Source of the DNA: Sulfuritortus calidifontis
Lineage (GTDB): Bacteria > Pseudomonadota > Gammaproteobacteria > Burkholderiales > Thiobacillaceae
Assembly (NCBI RefSeq): GCF_003967275.1
Contig: NZ_AP018721.1
Location: forward strand, 1,178,001 to 1,242,000
DNA length: 64,000 nt
Reading direction: 5' to 3'
Shown: piece by piece, positions 43,188 through 55,280 of the stretch
How the letters are laid out: each line of letters begins with the position of its first letter
Position numbering within the stretch: the first letter of the stretch is position 1
The notes under the pieces: generated by a model
The model's input: the letters and a program-made list of their open reading frames with translations, nothing else
Told to the model about the DNA's origin: nothing
The model's database searches: none
Made by a program: the position numbers and the translations under genes

Positions 43188-44459
43188 CTACTTTGCCTGA
43201 TTCATCACCTTCAACCGCTGACACAAACTGCCGATGATCCGCCGCGAGAACGGCGCCGAGTAGCGCATGAGTTCTTCCAGCAGTTGCGGCGGCAGGGCGA
43301 GGACGGTGATGTCGGTTTCGGCCACCACGGTGGCGCTGCGCGGCTCGCCCAAGAGGTAGGCCATTTCGCCGAACAGCTCGCCCTGTTCGATGTGGCCGAG
43401 CGGGCTGCCGTGGGGACCATCCTTGTACAGCGCGACCCGGCCGCTGTAGAGGTAGTAGCTCAGGTTGCCGGTTTCGCCTTGGTGGATGAGCACGCTGCCG
43501 GCGGGCAGGCTTTGGCCGTATTTGTCGAGCAGGCGGTTGATGCCGCTGAAGGCCAGGTTTTCCAGGCGGTTGGCGCCCTGGCCCTCGCTGCCTAGGAACA
43601 GGCGTTCCAGCGCGGCGACGTCGACCTTGGTCACGGCGTAGAGGCATTGGGCCCAGGCGAAGAAGGTGACGCTGATGAAGTAGATGCCGATCAGCACGAA
43701 CACCACGCCGGCGAGCGCGCCGTAGAGGGCGCGGTATTTCTCGGCGCTAAAGAAGTGGCCGAAGCCGGTGGCCAGGATGACCAGGCTGAGCGCGGCCAGG
43801 GCGCTGACCCAGAGGGTGGCCCGCAGGGGCGGTGGCTTCAAAGGCAGGCGCCAGAAGGCGAAGAAGGTGAGGGCCCAGACGGTGAGCAGGCTGAGCAGGC
43901 TGCTGGCCGCCTCCAGCGCGCCGGCCCGGGCGCTGCCCAGGAGCGAGGGCTGGGCCAGGAATTCGAGCACGCCGCGGGCGGCGACGCCGAGCAGGATGAG
44001 CAGGAAGGCGAGCGGCACGATAAGCAGGGGGATCGCCCAGGACACCACGAAGCGGCGCTTGCTGTCGGCCGGGAAGATCACCCGGAAGGCGCTTTGCAGG
44101 GCGTTGAGCAGCCCGCGCGAGGCCAGCACCAGGGTGAGCAGGCCGACGCCGCCGGCGGCGAGCTTGGTCTTGGCCGGGATGATGCCGAACTGGCGCAGGG
44201 TGTCGAGGTGGAACTGATCGTAGACGGCGGCGAGCAGGATGGTGCCGGGCACCGAGCCTGCGGCCCAGCGCTCCAGCAGGTTGGTGGCGTAGAGGGTGAG
44301 CATGACCAGGGGCGCGGCCGAAAGCAGGAAATAGAGCGAGACCGCCGCCGCGTGGTTGAACAGCTCGTTTTTGCTGAACAAGCGCCAGGTGGTCCAGGCG
44401 GTCTGCATCAGCCAGTCGAGCCGGTTGCGGCGTGGGGTGGGGGTTTTTGCCTCTGCCAT
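43188..44459 (-). CDS. YihY/RNase BN-like membrane protein fused to a cyclic-nucleotide-binding domain
   Basis: A 423-residue protein. The first 285 residues form the six-helix YihY domain (WRLFSKNELFNHAAAVSLYF; EKYRALYGALAGVVFVLIGI). The last 120 form a CAP-family cNMP-binding domain (SVLIHQGETGNLSYYLYSGR, GELFGEMAYLLGEPRSATVV). YihY proteins are not the RNase BN they were once named for. The ATG at 44459 is preferred; the frame runs open to 45902 only because it is antisense to the next gene. Its stop is followed in frame by the TumE body. A CHASE2 nucleotide cyclase at 49690 could supply the ligand. Confidence 0.85.
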   Translation of the reverse strand: MAEAKTPTPRRNRLDWLMQTAWTTWRLFSKNELFNHAAAVSLYFLLSAAPLVMLTLYATNLLERWAAGSVPGTILLAAVYDQFHLDTLRQFGIIPAKTKLAAGGVGLLTLVLASRGLLNALQSAFRVIFPADSKRRFVVSWAIPLLIVPLAFLLILLGVAARGVLEFLAQPSLLGSARAGALEAASSLLSLLTVWALTFFAFWRLPLKPPPLRATLWVSALAALSLVILATGFGHFFSAEKYRALYGALAGVVFVLIGIYFISVTFFAWAQCLYAVTKVDVAALERLFLGSEGQGANRLENLAFSGINRLLDKYGQSLPAGSVLIHQGETGNLSYYLYSGRVALYKDGPHGSPLGHIEQGELFGEMAYLLGEPRSATVVAETDITVLALPPQLLEELMRYSAPFSRRIIGSLCQRLKVMNQAK

Positions 44460-44546
44460 GGGCCTCAAGCTAGCCGAAAGTGGGGGAAATGGGCAAGAAA
44501 GGTAAAATGGCGGTTTTTCGGGCGGTGCCGGGCCGTTGCCTAAAAG

Positions 44547-44620
44547 CTCCCCACCCCCCCCTCCCCGCAAGCGGGGAGGGGCGCGCCTCCCCCATTTATG
44601 GGGGAGGTTGGGAGGGGGAG
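44547..44620. repeat. inverted pair of REP-like palindromes, intergenic
   Basis: Element 44547-44580 (tail left, core CCCTCCCCGC-AAGCGGGGAGGG type) and element 44587-44620 (core CTCCCCCATTTATGGGGGAG with tail GTTGGGAGGGGGAG) lie 6 bp apart in opposite orientation. They occupy the divergent gap between the YihY-type gene and the DUF1015 gene. Confidence 0.85.
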
Positions 44621-45911: not shown

Positions 45912-45934
45912 TCGAGTGGTCTTGAAGGCAAGGC

Positions 45935-45961
45935 AAAGGGCTGCCGATGGCTAGCCCTTTT
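45935..45961. terminator. bidirectional terminator between convergent genes
   Basis: AAAGGGCT (45935-45942) pairs with AGCCCTTT (45953-45960) across a 10-base loop, followed by T on the plus strand. It lies in the 52-bp gap between the DUF1015 gene and the glycosyltransferase gene. Confidence 0.65.
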
Positions 45962-45963
45962 GC

Positions 45964-47373
45964 TCATTGATTGTTCTGCCACCTGGCGCTGCGCTGCATC
46001 TCGCCCCAATGCCCCTTGGTGCCGATCAGCCAGCGCCACAGGCCAAGCAGGCGCCACCAGCTGTTGAGCTGACGAAAACCGACGTTCTCGCCCAGCATGG
46101 CGAGGTAGAGCCGGGCGACTTGAGCTGGGCGGGGATAGACATGGAAGGTGATCTCCTCCAGCAGCAGCGCGCTCGAAGTGAGCAACAGGCCGACGCCGAC
46201 GGCCAGCAACAGGAAAACACCGAAGGCAGGCCAGGAGATGGCGCCCGTCAGCGTGGCCAGGGTCAAGATCAAGAAGCCGCCCAGTTCGATCAGCGGCCCC
46301 AGGCCCTCGAAGAAGAGGGCGAAGGGGAAGGCCAGCCAGCCGACCAGGCCGCCATTGCGGTGGAACATCAGCGAGCGGTTGAACCACAGGCTTTCCATCA
46401 ACCCGCGCTGCCAGCGCACGCGCTGGTTTTTCAGGGTGCGCAGATCTTCCGGGGCCTCGGTCCAGCAGATCGGATCGGTGACGAAGACGACACGGTAAGG
46501 CTTCTTGTTTTGCCGATACAGGCGATGCAGGCGCACCACCAATTCCATGTCCTCACCCACGGTGTCGGTGCGGTAGCCGCCGGCGGCGATGACCGCCTCC
46601 TTGCGGAACAGGCCGAAGGCGCCGGAGATGATGAGCATGGCGTTGATCGGCGACCAGCCCATGCGGCCGAACAGGAAGGCGCGCAGGTATTCGACGATCT
46701 GGAACAGCGCCAGGGGGCTGCTGGGTAGGCCGATATCTTTCAGGAAGCCGCGGGCGACGGTACAGCCGTTGGCGATGCGCACGGTGCCGCCGGCGGCGAT
46801 GACGCGCGGATCGGCCAGAAAAGGTCGCACCACGCGCTGCAGGCTATCGCGTTGCAGGATGGAATCGGCATCGACCGCGCAGAACAGCGGATAGCGGCTG
46901 GCATTGATGCCGGCGTTGAGCGAGTCGGCCTTGCCGCCGTTTTCCTTGTCGATCACCCTCAAGTTTGGGTAGAGCGTCGAGTGGTAGATGGCGCGCACGG
47001 GTTGGGTCTTCAGGCGCACCCGATAGGCCTCGGGGAAGACCTGTAGCGAAAATTCCTGCTTGAGCACTTTCAGGGTGTCGTCGCGGGAGCCATCGTTGAT
47101 TACGACAATCTCGAACTCGGGATAGGCCAGTTGCAGCATGGAGCGGACCGAGCCGGCGATGGTGCTGGCCTCGTTGTAGGCCGGAACCAGCAGACTGATC
47201 GGCGGCTCCAGGCCGGAATAAAGGCGCGGCAGGGCGTCCAGCGAACGCGATGCGCTGGTGCGGGCGACTGCATAGAGGGCGATCAGGTTGAGGCCGGTAT
47301 AGACCAAGCTCAGGCCAGAGAAATAGAGGAGGAAGAGCCATTGGGTGGCATACACGATATCTTGCAACATCAT
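45964..47373 (-). CDS. membrane family-2 glycosyltransferase (PgaC/BcsA-like)
   Basis: A 469-residue processive-type GT2. One N-terminal helix (about 10-35) precedes the catalytic domain (about 55-290) with PAYNEASTIAGS, the FCAVDADS metal-binding DxD-like site, GEDMELVVRL and the QRVRWQRG motif. Several C-terminal helices (about 320-410) may form a translocation channel. It probably polymerises and exports a polysaccharide. It is the last gene of a four-gene operon with a response regulator, a YaiO-like barrel and a HEAT-repeat protein; its start overlaps the HEAT gene stop by 4 bp. Confidence 0.9.
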   Translation of the reverse strand: MMLQDIVYATQWLFLLYFSGLSLVYTGLNLIALYAVARTSASRSLDALPRLYSGLEPPISLLVPAYNEASTIAGSVRSMLQLAYPEFEIVVINDGSRDDTLKVLKQEFSLQVFPEAYRVRLKTQPVRAIYHSTLYPNLRVIDKENGGKADSLNAGINASRYPLFCAVDADSILQRDSLQRVVRPFLADPRVIAAGGTVRIANGCTVARGFLKDIGLPSSPLALFQIVEYLRAFLFGRMGWSPINAMLIISGAFGLFRKEAVIAAGGYRTDTVGEDMELVVRLHRLYRQNKKPYRVVFVTDPICWTEAPEDLRTLKNQRVRWQRGLMESLWFNRSLMFHRNGGLVGWLAFPFALFFEGLGPLIELGGFLILTLATLTGAISWPAFGVFLLLAVGVGLLLTSSALLLEEITFHVYPRPAQVARLYLAMLGENVGFRQLNSWWRLLGLWRWLIGTKGHWGEMQRSARWQNNQ

Positions 47374-48425
47374 GTAGCTCCCTGCTCGGCGATGACGTGT
47401 TCAAGGATGTCGCGGGCGAAGTGGTCGGTCAGCGTGGCCTGTAGCCGGCGCAGGGCAGCGATGTCCATGCCCGGCAAGCCGAGCAGGGCCTGGGCTGCGC
47501 GGTAACGAACCCACCATTCGCGGTCTGACAGCATGCCGGTCAGAACGGCCTTGTCTTCCTTCATGCCGATCCGGCCCAGGGCAGCGGCGGCCTGAACCCG
47601 TACCACCCAGTCGGGATAACTGGTGAGGCTGCGTACGGCGGGCACGGCGAGCGGATCCTGCACTGCTTTGAGGCAGCCAATCAGGGTTTGGGGATTATGT
47701 TCCGTTTCCAGCCAGTAATAGAGCAGTGGCTCCAATTCGGTTTCGTATACGGTGTACAGGAAAGGCAGAATATGGGGAATCTGTTCGCTCGGAAGACGCA
47801 TGGCGAATTCGATGAAGGGCGCCGTCACCAGGTCGGGCCCGGCCTCTTCCAGGATATTGGCGATGCGGATCGGCGCCCAGTCGCGGCGGCGGACAAGCTG
47901 CGGCAGGATCAGAGGGATCGCCTCCTGTGGACGGATATGGGTCAGGCCGCGGGCGGCGATCTGCGACAGCAGCGGGTTCTCGTCGGTCAGCTGTTCGAGC
48001 ATGAGTTCCCAGTCCTGCTCTTGGGCCATGTGGGCCAGGGCCAGCAGTCCCAGCACCCGGTCGGTCACGCTGGACTTGCGGGTGAGCTTGCGTGCGGCCT
48101 GGTCGATGCCACAGGCGAGGGCAAGGTCGGTCAGGTTCCTGGTGCCCTCGCCGCGCAGCAACTCCATGATGTGAATCCACAAGTGTAGAAACTGGCGAAC
48201 CGAGGCAAAGGGGACGGCCGGTGGCCTGTCGGGCAAGGTGAACAGGGCTTGGGCCATGATCGGCCGCCAGATTTCACTGAACTGCTGCTCCCGCCGCTGG
48301 CTCAGGATCAGGTGCAGCCGGGTCAGCATGATCTGTACGACCAGCAAGATGGTGAGCAGCATGGCAGCGCTGCCGCCCCAGAGGGCCAGTTTCAGCAGCA
48401 GGTCAGAATGCGCGACGGAGCCCAA
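47370..48425 (-). CDS. membrane-anchored HEAT-repeat protein
   Basis: A 351-residue protein with an N-terminal transmembrane helix (about residues 12-34) and a cytoplasmic array of HEAT-like helical pairs (for example NPLLSQIAARGLTHIRPQEA, DWVVRVQAAAALGRIGMKED, DREWWVRYRAAQALLGLPGM). The start is a TTG at 48425 overlapping the YaiO-like gene end by 23 bp; GGGAT precedes it. It is likely a scaffold linking the signalling and glycosyltransferase parts of the operon. A similar HEAT/YaiO/GT arrangement occurs in other proteobacteria to my knowledge, but its product is not known to me. Confidence 0.8.
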   Translation of the reverse strand: MGSVAHSDLLLKLALWGGSAAMLLTILLVVQIMLTRLHLILSQRREQQFSEIWRPIMAQALFTLPDRPPAVPFASVRQFLHLWIHIMELLRGEGTRNLTDLALACGIDQAARKLTRKSSVTDRVLGLLALAHMAQEQDWELMLEQLTDENPLLSQIAARGLTHIRPQEAIPLILPQLVRRRDWAPIRIANILEEAGPDLVTAPFIEFAMRLPSEQIPHILPFLYTVYETELEPLLYYWLETEHNPQTLIGCLKAVQDPLAVPAVRSLTSYPDWVVRVQAAAALGRIGMKEDKAVLTGMLSDREWWVRYRAAQALLGLPGMDIAALRRLQATLTDHFARDILEHVIAEQGAT

Positions 48426-49146
48426 GTTTTATCCCGTTGCGGGTGTAGAGGTCACCTTGGCGTTGGCTGGACAGCTCATAGATGATGGCCCAGTCGGGGT
48501 TCAGCCAGTGACGGCCGACCAACCCAAGGCTGTAGACATCGCTCGCCAGCACGGTCGTACCCTGGTTCTCCAGCTCGCGGCCGGTCGCGGCGTATAGCCC
48601 GACCCGGCTGTGCTCGCCATAGTAGTAATCGAATTGCAGGCGATGGGCCGACGAGGAGCCGCTGCCTTCGAGATAGCTGGAATAGAAGGTGTAGCCGGCG
48701 CGGTAATTCGACCAGTAGCGTTCCAGGGTGAGATTGGCGGTGCTGGTGGTGTCATGGGTGTATTCGGTGCGGCGCAGGCCGAGATGCGCTCCCCAGCCAT
48801 CGGGCAGGGTCCGCTGCACCTGGGCGAAGGCGGACCACTTGGCCAGTACTTCATGCGTCGGACTGAAATTGCCCTCCAGCACCAGGGTCCAGTCAGGGCC
48901 AAGTGGGTGGTAATAACCGGCGAGCAGTTCGCTGTCGCGTTGGGCAAAGCGCTCGGTTTGCCGCACCATGCCGTAGACCGACTGCCGTTTGTCGATCTGG
49001 TAGCCGGCCTCAAGGTAGCGGCTTTCCCAGTCGGCATAGCCCTTGTCCAGGTTCTCCATGCTGGCGCCGATTTCCGCTTCCAGACGGCCGGCCCAGGCTG
49101 GCGTGCAGAGCAGGGCAGTTGCCGTCAAACAGGCCAGGGTTCTCAT
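48403..49146 (-). CDS. YaiO-family outer-membrane beta-barrel protein
   Basis: A 247-residue protein with a signal peptide (cleavage after AWA near residue 19) and alternating aromatic strands throughout (for example YGMVRQTERFAQRDSELLAG, AHLGLRRTEYTHDTTSTANL, ending IKLGLRRAF). The C-terminal Phe is typical of BAM substrates. YaiO proteins are outer-membrane barrels often encoded with glycosyltransferases. It may be the export pore or an anchor for the polymer made by the GT2 at 45964. It overlaps the response regulator stop by 4 bp. Confidence 0.85.
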   Translation of the reverse strand: MRTLACLTATALLCTPAWAGRLEAEIGASMENLDKGYADWESRYLEAGYQIDKRQSVYGMVRQTERFAQRDSELLAGYYHPLGPDWTLVLEGNFSPTHEVLAKWSAFAQVQRTLPDGWGAHLGLRRTEYTHDTTSTANLTLERYWSNYRAGYTFYSSYLEGSGSSSAHRLQFDYYYGEHSRVGLYAATGRELENQGTTVLASDVYSLGLVGRHWLNPDWAIIYELSSQRQGDLYTRNGIKLGLRRAF

Positions 49147-49550
49147 GTTTTTACCTTCAGAAAACGTCGAATTCGCGCCAGCAGTTCGTTCGGCTGGAAA
49201 GGCTTGAGGATGTAATCATCCGCCCCGCTGTCCAGGGCGCGCACGATATCCTGTTCCTGGGATTTGACGGTGAGCATCACAATCGGCACGGATTGCCATT
49301 GGCTATTGCCACGAATGGCGTGGATTAATTGGAAGCCGTCGCTGTATGGCAGCATCACATCGAGCAGCACCAGGGAGGGTGCGGCCATGGTCTGGATCAG
49401 GTCGATCGCCTCGCGGCCATCCTTGGCGCGCACGGCCTCGTAGCCCTCACGCTTGAGGATGAATTCGAGCAGGTAGGCAATGACTTCGTCGTCTTCCACC
49501 ACGACGACTTTCTGGCTGTTCACGCGGAAATCACTTTCTTTGTATGGCAT
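49143..49550 (-). CDS. single-domain response regulator (CheY-like receiver)
   Basis: A receiver domain of about 135 residues with no output domain. The acidic pocket is VVVEDDE, the phosphorylation site LLDVMLPYSDG, then MLTVKS and the conserved Lys in DYILKPFQPNE. The start may be the ATG at 49550 (MPYKES), an ATG at 49565 or a GTG at 49523. As first gene of the operon with the barrel, HEAT and GT2 genes, it probably controls polysaccharide output by protein contact. No histidine kinase is adjacent. Confidence 0.88.
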   Translation of the reverse strand: MPYKESDFRVNSQKVVVVEDDEVIAYLLEFILKREGYEAVRAKDGREAIDLIQTMAAPSLVLLDVMLPYSDGFQLIHAIRGNSQWQSVPIVMLTVKSQEQDIVRALDSGADDYILKPFQPNELLARIRRFLKVKT

Positions 49551-49689
49551 GCTGGCCAAGCCCAAGGCCTGGACTGACTCGATTCTATGAAAATTAGCCG
49601 GGCAATTGTTCGGTGAAGAGACTTAGGGTGGCTACGGAGAGCGATTCAGTCAAACAACTGTCGCATTCACACCATGCGCAGCGGGATAT

Positions 49690-51927
49690 CTATTTGGTCT
49701 TGAACACGAACACACCGTCCCAGCCTTCGCCGGGCGGCTCGGCGCGGGAGTGTGCGATGCGTTCGAGGTAGAGCTGGTAGAGCTTGGCCTCCGGATGCTG
49801 TCCGGCCAGGGCCTTCAGCCCGGTCTCGGCGGCGTCCCAGCGCTGCGCACGGTAGTCGGCCAAGGCCTGTTCAAAGCGGGCGACTTCCGCCTTCACCTCC
49901 TCGGCAACCTTGTCTTGGAGGCCGAGCGGCTCGTAGATCGCCACCGGCTTGTCCTTGCCCTTCACCCGCACCCGGTCGAGTTCGCGGAAGACGAAATCGG
50001 GCAGGGCATCGCGGGTGTGTTCGCCGACCAGGATCTCGACGCCGTATTCCTTGGTCAGGCCCTCCAGGCGCGAGGCCAGGTTCACCGCATCCCCCATGAC
50101 GGTATAGGAGCGGCGGAACTCGGAGCCCATGTTGCCGACGTTCATCACCCCGGTGTTGAGGCCGACGCCGATGCGCATGGCCGGCCAGCCCCGCTTGGGA
50201 AATTCCTCGCGCAGTTCCTTCATCTTCGCCTGCATGGCCAGTGCGGCCGCGAGGCCGTGGCGGGCGTGGTCGGGATCGGCCAGGGGCGCGCCCCAGAAGG
50301 CCATGATGGCGTCGCCGATGTATTTGTCGATGGTGCCCCGATGCTCGTGGATCACGCGGGTCATGGTGGTGAGGTAGGCGTTCATCAGCCGGGTGAGTTC
50401 GATCGGGGTCAGCCCCTCGGACAGATTGGTGAAGTTGCGCACGTCGCTGAACAGCACGGTCATCTCCCGGCTGTCGCCTTCCATGCTGGCCTGCTCGGGA
50501 TGCTCCGACAGCTCCTCGACCAGCTCCGGCGGCACATACTGGCCGAACAGCCCGGCCACCCGGCGCTTGGTGCGTGCCTCGAAGAAGAAGCCGTAGACCA
50601 TGTTGATGGCGAACAGGCCGAGGATGAGCACGGTGACCGAGGCGATGGGATAGACCAGATTGATGTTCTGCCAGGCCCAGAGATTGAAGCCGACGTTGGC
50701 GCCGAGCACGGCCAGGGTGAACAGCAGGCTGGTGACCGGCCCCAGCAGGGCGAGGACCAGGACGATGGCGATGCCGTTGAAGAGGAGCAGGGCCAGTTCC
50801 AGGCCCAGCACGTAGGCGGGACGCTCCTTGATGTTGTTGTCGAGGATACCGGAGATCAGATTGGCATGGACCTCCACCCCTGGATAGACGGTGCCGACCG
50901 GCACGGTGCGCAGATCCATGAGCCCGGGCGCGGTGGTGCCGATCAGGATGATGCGGCCGGCGAGCATGGCCGGGTCGACCTTCTTGTGCAGCACGTCGGT
51001 GGCCGAGATGTAGGGGAAGCTGCCCTGGCCGCCGCGGTAGGGCACCAGGGTGGCGAATTCCTTGTCGACCGGGATGCGGATGTCGCCCAGCTTGACCCAT
51101 TCGATGGCGGTGTAGCCGGCGGCCATCGCCTCCTCGTCCGGGAAGCCGAGCTCGACGAAGTCGACGCCGAGGAAGTGGCGCGCCATGAGCAGGGCGAGGC
51201 TCTCGTAATAGCCGCCCTGGTATTCCAGCAGCAGCGGTACCCGGCGGTTGACCCCGTCCGGGTCGTGCAGCGGGTTGAAGTGGCCACTGTCGAGGGCGGC
51301 CGCCTGCAGGGCGGGCAGGTTCGCGCCGTAGCCGTCCATCGACCGCGCCTGCAGCCGGATGTCGCCCAGGGCGCCGGGCGGGAAGATGGGCTCGGGCAGG
51401 ACGCCGGAGACCTGGGCCTGCTGCTGGCCGCTGCGGCTGGTGAAGTAATAGCCGAGGATGACCGGCCGGCCCCGGATGTGTTGGGCGAACAGGGCATCGC
51501 GGTCGAGCTGGGGTGCCAGTTCGCGCATGGCAGACTGGTATTCCGGGATGCCTTTGAGCCGGCTTTGCGCCAGGCCCTGCAGCACCTTGAGCCCGGAGCT
51601 CTCGTCCGGCTCGGCGAACACCACGTCGAAGCCGACGATGGCCACGCCATAGTCGTCGAACAGGCGGTCGACCAGCCGGGCCACCTTGTCGCGCCCCCAG
51701 GGCCAGCGCCCTTCGGCCTTGAGGCTCTTTTCGTCGAGGTCGATGATGACGATGCGGGGGTCCACCGTGTTCGGCATCAGAAACCGCAGGCGGGTGTCGT
51801 AGGCGATTTCTTCCAGGCGGTCGAGCAGGGGGATATGGTAGACGCCGGCGGTGTTGAGCAGCAGGCCGATCAGCAGCAGCAGGCCGGTGAGCATGCGCCA
51901 GGTGTGGCGCTTGAAGGTGCTGAACAT
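49690..51927 (-). CDS. CHASE2-domain adenylate/guanylate cyclase
   Basis: A 745-residue membrane sensor cyclase. It has an N-terminal helix (about 12-30), a periplasmic CHASE2 domain (about 40-330; includes VAIVGFDVVFAEPDESS and GRIILIGTTAPGLMDLRTVP), three transmembrane helices (about 345-440) and a class III nucleotide cyclase domain (about 480-650). The latter carries metal-binding aspartates in VLFSDVRNFTNLSEG and KYIGDAIMAFWGAP, then VGNMGSEFRRSYTVMGDAVN. A C-terminal TPR-like helical tail follows. It should turn an envelope signal into cAMP or cGMP. The nearby YihY-CNB fusion (43188-44459) has a cNMP-binding domain. Confidence 0.94.
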   Translation of the reverse strand: MFSTFKRHTWRMLTGLLLLIGLLLNTAGVYHIPLLDRLEEIAYDTRLRFLMPNTVDPRIVIIDLDEKSLKAEGRWPWGRDKVARLVDRLFDDYGVAIVGFDVVFAEPDESSGLKVLQGLAQSRLKGIPEYQSAMRELAPQLDRDALFAQHIRGRPVILGYYFTSRSGQQQAQVSGVLPEPIFPPGALGDIRLQARSMDGYGANLPALQAAALDSGHFNPLHDPDGVNRRVPLLLEYQGGYYESLALLMARHFLGVDFVELGFPDEEAMAAGYTAIEWVKLGDIRIPVDKEFATLVPYRGGQGSFPYISATDVLHKKVDPAMLAGRIILIGTTAPGLMDLRTVPVGTVYPGVEVHANLISGILDNNIKERPAYVLGLELALLLFNGIAIVLVLALLGPVTSLLFTLAVLGANVGFNLWAWQNINLVYPIASVTVLILGLFAINMVYGFFFEARTKRRVAGLFGQYVPPELVEELSEHPEQASMEGDSREMTVLFSDVRNFTNLSEGLTPIELTRLMNAYLTTMTRVIHEHRGTIDKYIGDAIMAFWGAPLADPDHARHGLAAALAMQAKMKELREEFPKRGWPAMRIGVGLNTGVMNVGNMGSEFRRSYTVMGDAVNLASRLEGLTKEYGVEILVGEHTRDALPDFVFRELDRVRVKGKDKPVAIYEPLGLQDKVAEEVKAEVARFEQALADYRAQRWDAAETGLKALAGQHPEAKLYQLYLERIAHSRAEPPGEGWDGVFVFKTK

Positions 51928-55201: not shown

Positions 55202-55204
55202 TTT

Positions 55205-55280
55205 CTCCACCCCAACCCTCCTCACAAGTGGGGAGGGCGCATGCTCCTCCCCCACTTGTGGGGGAGGTCGGGAGGGGGAG
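55205..55280. repeat. inverted pair of REP-like palindromes, intergenic
   Basis: Element 55205-55237 (core CCCTCCTCACAAGTGGGGAGGG, tail to the left) and element 55245-55280 (core CCTCCCCCACTTGTGGGGGAGG, tail TCGGGAGGGGGAG to the right) are 7 bp apart and inverted. They lie between the convergent ispD and relA genes. Confidence 0.85.

Follow-up and report, generated by a model that had tools for sequence, protein, structure and literature searches.

The four-gene cassette

We analysed a 64,000-nucleotide stretch of the Sulfuritortus calidifontis genome (contig NZ_AP018721.1, positions 1,178,001 to 1,242,000), called here the window, and concentrated on a cassette of four genes at window positions 45964–49550. 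All lie on the minus strand, in the order: a lone response-regulator receiver without output domain (RR, 49143–49550), a YaiO-family outer-membrane beta-barrel without TPR domain (48403–49146), a membrane-anchored HEAT-repeat protein with an N-terminal transmembrane (TM) helix (47370–48425) and a processive-type family 2 glycosyltransferase (GT2, 45964–47373) with membrane helices at its N- and C-terminus. RR starts with ATG, an in-frame TTG alternative being present at 49565, and the HEAT gene starts with TTG. The open reading frames (ORFs) overlap by 4 bp (RR/YaiO), 23 bp (YaiO/HEAT) and 4 bp (HEAT/GT2). With domain scores above cut-offs, they bear out the arrangement of receiver, barrel, HEAT protein and glycosyltransferase given in an earlier note on this DNA. 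Short gene overlaps are frequent in dense operons. They were not accepted as stand-alone evidence; the argument rests on conservation.

RR matches Pfam Response_reg with 102.1 bits (cut-off 30.2). It was aligned with 38 receivers picked by hidden Markov model score and length, a set pre-selected for likeness; among these 39 sequences, E24 is kept in 38, D25 in 37, the phospho-acceptor D69 in 38, T99 in 32 and K121 in 39. D69 and K121 are both present in the window protein, which thus has an intact phospho-acceptor pocket. As the RR model also matches unrelated receivers, a floor of 40 bits was applied in the searches described below.

The HEAT protein scores 64.2 bits against HEAT_2 (cut-off 27.7) and is most conserved in its C-terminal WWVRYRAAQAL region. 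Since 60 of 65 family members carry an excess of K/R on the C-terminal side of the single N-terminal TM helix, the HEAT domain is predicted to be cytoplasmic, on the same side as the receiver and the GT2 active site.

The barrel belongs to the YaiO family (PF19413, 78.2 bits against 23.9; TIGR04390, 138.5 against 32). By eye, its N-terminus resembles a signal peptide and its C-terminal residue is Phe. The AlphaFold2 model (pLDDT 93) has 14 strands and matches OmpG (TMq 0.73); CymA, OmpG and FadL-family channels tie at Z near 20. In many relatives a TPR domain precedes the barrel, the window barrel being the version without TPR. The earlier note had placed the barrel outside the PgaA design. 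This does not hold for the family: an excerpt of PMC9384988 describes PgaA and BcsC as an N-terminal TPR domain plus barrel, and the TPR-YaiO fusions of the relatives share this domain order. Among the open-access PubMed Central (PMC) papers listed as naming YaiO, no title or abstract beginning gives a role for the family.

Recurrence of the gene set in other genomes

In a sample of the class, GT2 was found in 17 of 369 genomes (E 1e-40 or better). A HEAT gene adjoins it in all 17 (the window was read directly, 15 loci were scored by BLAST and L033 by Pfam). The HEAT matches are weak in the loci that are most distant, with a 91-aa piece in L035, and in L028 HEAT and GT2 converge, so that HEAT is not upstream. 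Of these genomes, 12 have a recognised YaiO barrel and nine a receiver.

A second set consisted of 80 named loci, the best 80 of 570 confirmed stretches, which is no census and favours close relatives of the window GT2. In 67 of the 80, HEAT directly precedes a GT2 of equal orientation. When the 12 loci with less than 3 kb of upstream sequence were excluded, HEAT was directly upstream in 58 of the remaining 68, with a receiver upstream in 48 of these 58, a YaiO match nearby in 41 and the complete RR-YaiO-HEAT-GT2 order in 27. When the ORFs around all 80 loci were clustered, HEAT proteins turned up at 74 loci, receivers at 71 and YaiO-like proteins at 59; the remaining large clusters resemble shadow ORFs of these three genes. 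The search for the cassette across genomes that the earlier note had proposed finds it well beyond this strain, with the receiver, HEAT and GT2 genes recurring in distant bacteria and in haloarchaea, and a strain-specific accident was rejected because the set recurs across phyla.

The grouping is above chance, since the whole S. calidifontis genome contains only two HEAT_2 matches yet distant genomes repeat the neighbourhood. As a control we used PgaC-type genes, present at E 1e-80 in 12 of 229 class genomes (nine above the curated cut-off, three below). A search of ~1.5 kb to each side of the 12 genes gave no match to HEAT, receiver or YaiO at any of them; this span is fair for HEAT and narrow for the receiver and the barrel. 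In one of them (L139, genome G229) the PgaC-like gene lies less than 2 kb from a cassette, just beyond the searched span. Distance matrices from 40 of the 48 receiver-bearing loci (those with a lone receiver under 170 aa) correlate with r of 0.93 for GT2-HEAT, 0.86 for GT2-RR and 0.83 for HEAT-RR, the partial HEAT-RR correlation given GT2 being 0.20. These values reflect co-inheritance and are given little weight, the species tree not being controlled for.

A core without the barrel

Receiver, HEAT and GT2 occur together without a recognised barrel in Clostridium folliculivorans, C. caldaquaticum and Halolactibacillus alkaliphilus, and in L115, L118 and L120 Pfam confirmed HEAT and a receiver was recognised. 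These three species are not known to have an outer membrane, and one of the bacterial type is not expected in haloarchaea either. Plasmids gave a similar picture. Of 13 plasmid records carrying GT2, 11 were opened, and the 10 annotated ones among them were examined: HEAT is annotated next to GT2 in nine, and the GT2 neighbour on the tenth, from Emticicia, reaches 25.0 bits against the HEAT_2 cut-off of 27.7. A receiver is annotated upstream in eight, those of Deinococcus and Bacteroides lacking it. Three haloarchaeal plasmids carry receiver, HEAT and GT2 in order, one with an extra small ORF in between, and two Mesorhizobium plasmids carry exactly receiver, YaiO (with TPR), HEAT and GT2.

Because the trio recurs without a recognised barrel in Clostridium and the haloarchaea, we take receiver-HEAT-GT2 as the core and the barrel as an addition. 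HEAT-GT2 is what stays constant, in most cases joined by the receiver, whereas double-membrane cells have the barrel as an accessory. The four-gene set that the earlier note treated as a unit does recur widely, with its barrel optional.

Two other proteins were observed near these genes. A protein of 707–719 aa precedes the receiver in two Clostridium species (L118:2835-4958 and L120:3083-5242; the L118 copy has no Pfam match) and is a candidate extracellular processing partner. The other, of ~396 aa and by eye bearing a membrane helix at its N-terminus, is encoded at L119:9940-11130, without Pfam match, with relatives in L104, L112, L113 and L116; these five loci are from non-proteobacterial clades or metagenome-assembled genomes (MAGs), and in four of them the gene is on the same strand as HEAT-GT2.

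GT2 as a putative processive synthase

GT2 scores 88.1 bits against Glyco_tranf_2_3 (cut-off 27). The DxD, GED/TED and QxxRW motifs are marks of processive GT2 enzymes of the hyaluronan, chitin and cellulose synthase type. In an alignment of 35 sequences the corresponding residues, D168/D170, GED 273–275 and Q317-R318-R320-W321, are invariant. The AlphaFold2 model (pLDDT 86.6) was compared to the PDB with Foldseek: the best match by E-value is the Chlorella virus hyaluronan synthase, over about the whole length (TMq 0.66), and chitin and cellulose synthases rank below it.

GT2 might instead be no polymerase and transfer just one sugar or a few onto a carrier in the envelope or a lipid carrier, with the barrel as an ordinary small porin. 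Many of the GT2 sequence matches in the PDB indeed cover the N-terminal GT-A core only, non-processive membrane enzymes are numerous in GT2 families, and the barrel resembles general saccharide porins. We consider this quite unlikely: the GED and QRxRW motifs, which are associated with processivity, are invariant, the match to hyaluronan synthase, though loose, takes in the membrane helices, and a TPR domain is fused to the barrel in relatives.

If GT2 is a polymerase, as we favour, it could also belong to a reduced PgaC-type pathway, making poly-beta-1,6-GlcNAc (PNAG) with the HEAT protein as a mere substitute for PgaD. PgaC_IcaA (TIGR03937) is the best NCBIfam model for GT2, PgaC is the closest of three E. 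coli enzymes compared (PgaC, YaiP and NfrB; 25.7% over 315 aa), and cassette barrels often carry TPR, like PgaA. Yet the PgaC_IcaA score is 136.2 bits against a cut-off of 422.3, the cassette has no PgaB deacetylase, and the PgaC-type control loci lack a nearby HEAT gene. In addition, L024 (and apparently L025) has the cassette plus a separate PgaC/PgaD-like locus, so the two systems are distinct there. The second, PgaC-like GT2s of L024 and L025 were included in the GT2 seed set (>100 bits), which inflates PgaC scores and leaves the HEAT, RR and YaiO counts unaffected. Overall, a PNAG pathway appears quite unlikely.

The receiver and its possible signalling partners

Histidine-kinase genes are linked to the cassette in several relatives. 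In L078 (Stutzerimonas) and L083 (Luteimonas) the receiver gene is overlapped by an ORF for a hybrid kinase that has an H-box motif, and in six more loci labelled Pseudomonas or Stutzerimonas by an ORF of similar size with a receiver match. On the two Mesorhizobium plasmids the cassette is accompanied by genes for an ATP-binding protein, another receiver and an Hpt protein, and an Hpt gene is linked to it in Devosia. Rec-X-Rec proteins are a further linked component of phosphorelay type.

Other loci would allow another type of control, in which the receiver and its Rec-GGDEF relatives would set a local cyclic di-GMP (c-di-GMP) signal sensed by HEAT or GT2. Rec-GGDEF-Rec proteins are encoded upstream of HEAT-GT2, directly in L098, L104, L115 and L116, whereas in L106 a small receiver gene intervenes; Hpt was above its cut-off in L106 only and slightly below it in L115 and L116. 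The GGEEF/GGDEF motif is present in L106, L113, L115 and L119, the ORFs of L113 and L119 being similar to Rec-GGDEF-Rec in size and position and carrying GGEEF. In L078, L086, L088, L095 and L099, moreover, the hybrid-kinase ORF is preceded by a receiver ORF with a GGEEF motif. Against this, the motif check found no GGDEF-type motif in L098, L104, L110, L116 and L117, and the proteins of L117 and L118 have two receiver domains without GGDEF match. The receiver is bare in the window and in most proteobacterial loci, and the Pfam and NCBIfam scans of the four window proteins gave no match to a known domain for c-di-GMP binding. Control by c-di-GMP is unlikely in our view. The comparison of loci suggests that the receiver, rather than the cyclase, is the constant signalling element.

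Sugar clues from other loci

At the Halosolutus locus, two genes downstream on the same strand encode GlmS (705.4 bits, above cut-off) and an archaeal GlmU-like protein (259 bits, slightly below the cut-off of 292.1); neither was found at the two remaining loci from haloarchaea. The TPR-YaiO/HEAT/GT2 locus L036, which is distant, has an adjoining nucleotide-sugar dehydrogenase gene (351.2 bits against 189.8) whose best model is TviB (387.9 bits, below the cut-off of 592). Genes for short-chain dehydrogenase/reductase proteins of epimerase/dehydratase type flank L036 and are present in L037 and L038 too. An N-acetylhexosamine (amino-sugar) based polymer is favoured because of these sugar genes at Halosolutus and L036, together with the hyaluronan-synthase-like fold, and is likely; for the window it is a lead, drawn from the fold and from the neighbouring genes of other loci.

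Flanks and distribution in the genus

Upstream of the cassette lies a CHASE2-adenylate/guanylate cyclase gene (49690–51927, minus strand; Pfam CHASE2 and Guanylate_cyc), and downstream a DUF1015 gene convergent with GT2. A hairpin between GT2 and DUF1015 (45934–45959, inverted repeat AAAGGGCT/AGCCCTTT) is, from its sequence, a probable terminator common to both genes. The fold of the RNA at 45925–45966 (−18.3 kcal/mol, z −1.8) gives this modest support.

GT2 is present in two of six genus genomes, that of the window and G001, and the HEAT gene in the same two. G001 has the same four-gene order between cyclase and DUF1015. DUF1015 itself is found in all six. In G005 the cyclase ends ~140 bp from the DUF1015 end, with no cassette in between. 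The two flanking genes, paired there without the cassette, were rejected as cassette members. In G004, DUF1015 adjoins the gene that in the window sits upstream of the cyclase, and neither cyclase nor cassette is present; in G002 and G003 other DNA follows DUF1015, with no cassette within the 1.5 kb examined. Hence within the genus the cassette is either there or missing as one block, present in two genomes and absent in four. A HEAT search at E 1e-5 gave no match in 55 other relatives outside the genus (2/61 overall); starting from a single sequence, such a search may overlook HEAT proteins at the 15–30% identity seen in other loci.

Some further features were observed. The cassette-free junction of G005 is filled by a GGGAGAGGG-type inverted repeat. 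A YihY/BrkB-like membrane protein is encoded at ~43200–44470 (minus strand), with an apparent C-terminal cyclic-nucleotide-binding domain (from the translation, by eye); with the CHASE2 cyclase a few kb away, it forms a possible cyclase-effector pair. Finally, a short repeat occurs at two window sites (~44548–44620 and 55204–55280; 83% over 77 bp).

A model for the cassette

We read the cassette as a polysaccharide machine of the synthase-dependent kind, in which two-component phosphorylation would govern the synthase, with a probability of roughly 0.6. A histidine kinase, unlinked in the window and represented by the linked hybrid kinases of Stutzerimonas, Luteimonas and others, would phosphorylate the lone receiver. 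The receiver would then act on the cytoplasmic, membrane-anchored HEAT protein, which may dock on or beside GT2 and switch or stabilise it. GT2 would build a polymer from a nucleotide sugar, in all likelihood one based on UDP-N-acetylhexosamine, and thread it across the membrane by a channel of its own; release through the outer membrane would fall to the 14-stranded YaiO barrel. The earlier note had proposed a minimal, signal-controlled synthesis and export machine: the compact set fits the gene evidence, control, polymer and export being the parts that we infer.

Several findings weigh against this reading. No HisKA or Hpt match lies inside the 64-kb window, and among the 29 HisKA and 11 Hpt matches elsewhere in the genome no partner kinase stands out; a part for c-di-GMP stays conceivable, given the Rec-GGDEF-Rec relatives whose motifs are intact. 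Not every cassette has the receiver: 10 of the 58 HEAT-GT2 loci (Stenotrophomonas and several MAGs) and eight of the 17 class-sample genomes have none upstream. The HEAT gene is not directly upstream of GT2 in 10 of 68 loci, each of which is labelled Nitrospira, Nitrospiraceae or Nitrosospira; eight of these have a HEAT match elsewhere in the locus, in five cases on the opposite strand. In four Massilia loci RR-HEAT-GT2 is present and no YaiO was recognised near it. The superposition of the predicted GT2 model on hyaluronan synthase is loose, with a root-mean-square deviation of 8.6 Å and 16% identity. As for the sugar, the clue stems from distant loci and a single one of the three archaeal loci, and the window itself offers none. 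Lastly, the modelled 14-strand barrel is narrower than the PgaA and BcsC porins, which have 16 strands according to an excerpt of PMC9384988, and chain export through it is plausible only. As a separate observation, the ten Nitrospira-type loci (L048–L052, L057, L062, L064, L069 and L085) have this GT2 at 58–64% identity.

A broader version of the model can be proposed tentatively, with somewhat less than an even chance: a family of two-component-gated synthases extending from Bacteria to Archaea, in which a phosphorylated lone receiver would act via a membrane-anchored HEAT adaptor as a direct switch of a hyaluronan-synthase-like polymerase, a post-translational route in parallel to c-di-GMP/PilZ, with YaiO added in double-membrane bacteria. 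If true, direct two-component control, via a bare receiver and a HEAT adaptor, would be added to matrix polymer synthesis; environmental bacteria, clostridia and haloarchaea would make uncharacterised polymers, and the YaiO barrel family would gain a candidate role. No published description of the cassette was found in the open-access PMC literature, which does not establish its absence from print.

Comparison with known systems

Membership in the PNAG, cellulose and NfrAB systems was rejected on scores (PgaC_IcaA, TIGR03030 and the NfrB alignment). With pgaABCD of E. coli the cassette shares a putative channel-type GT2 and an outer-membrane barrel, a TPR-barrel in many relatives, and the sequence relation of GT2 to PgaC. 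It differs in a GT2 far under the PgaC cut-off and in its receiver and HEAT partners. Neither pgaB nor pgaD is among the four genes and the two scanned flanks, the rest of the genome not having been searched. The barrels also differ in strand number, 16 in PgaA (excerpt of PMC9384988) and 14 in the window. The separate PgaC/PgaD-like locus mentioned above, at L024:2951-7145 and at an equivalent place in L025, is convergent with the cassette. Its PgaC and PgaD matches, scanned in L024, are both slightly below the model cut-offs, and L025 looks alike. It also encodes a TPR protein that matches the PgaA barrel weakly and a protein with slight likeness to PEP-CTERM proteins.

The E. coli yaiO-yaiX-yaiP-yaiS cluster likewise has a YaiO barrel near a GT2 (YaiP), but annotated deacetylase and acyltransferase genes stand where the cassette has HEAT and receiver. 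YaiP is 24.5% identical to the window GT2 over 261 aa, and E. coli YaiO scores 15 bits against the cassette YaiO model. NfrA/NfrB of E. coli shares a regulated GT2 with an outer-membrane partner, and is annotated as c-di-GMP-activated. Only 71 aa of NfrB align with the window GT2 (E 0.002), which is therefore not NfrB-like over its full length, and the nfr region examined has no HEAT gene, its only two-component genes being cusS/cusR.

Cellulose synthase BcsA/BcsB shares the processive GT2 fold class predicted for the window protein. GT2 scores 58.3 bits against the CelA/BcsA equivalog model TIGR03030 (cut-off 699.1), and the Pfam and NCBIfam scans gave no BcsB or PilZ match in the four cassette proteins. 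The Chlorella virus hyaluronan synthase, the best structural match despite the loose superposition at about 16% identity, is not known to have HEAT or receiver partners or a barrel.

An excerpt of PMC7112194 describes synthase-dependent exopolysaccharide systems as a membrane synthase, a co-polymerase or regulatory component to which a cyclic dinucleotide binds as signal, and an outer-membrane pore, encoded in one operon. The gene content of the cassette fits this description, and a polymer would be secreted. The cassette would then be a new variety of such a system, in which the phosphorylated receiver and the HEAT adaptor hold the regulatory place taken elsewhere by c-di-GMP or PgaD.

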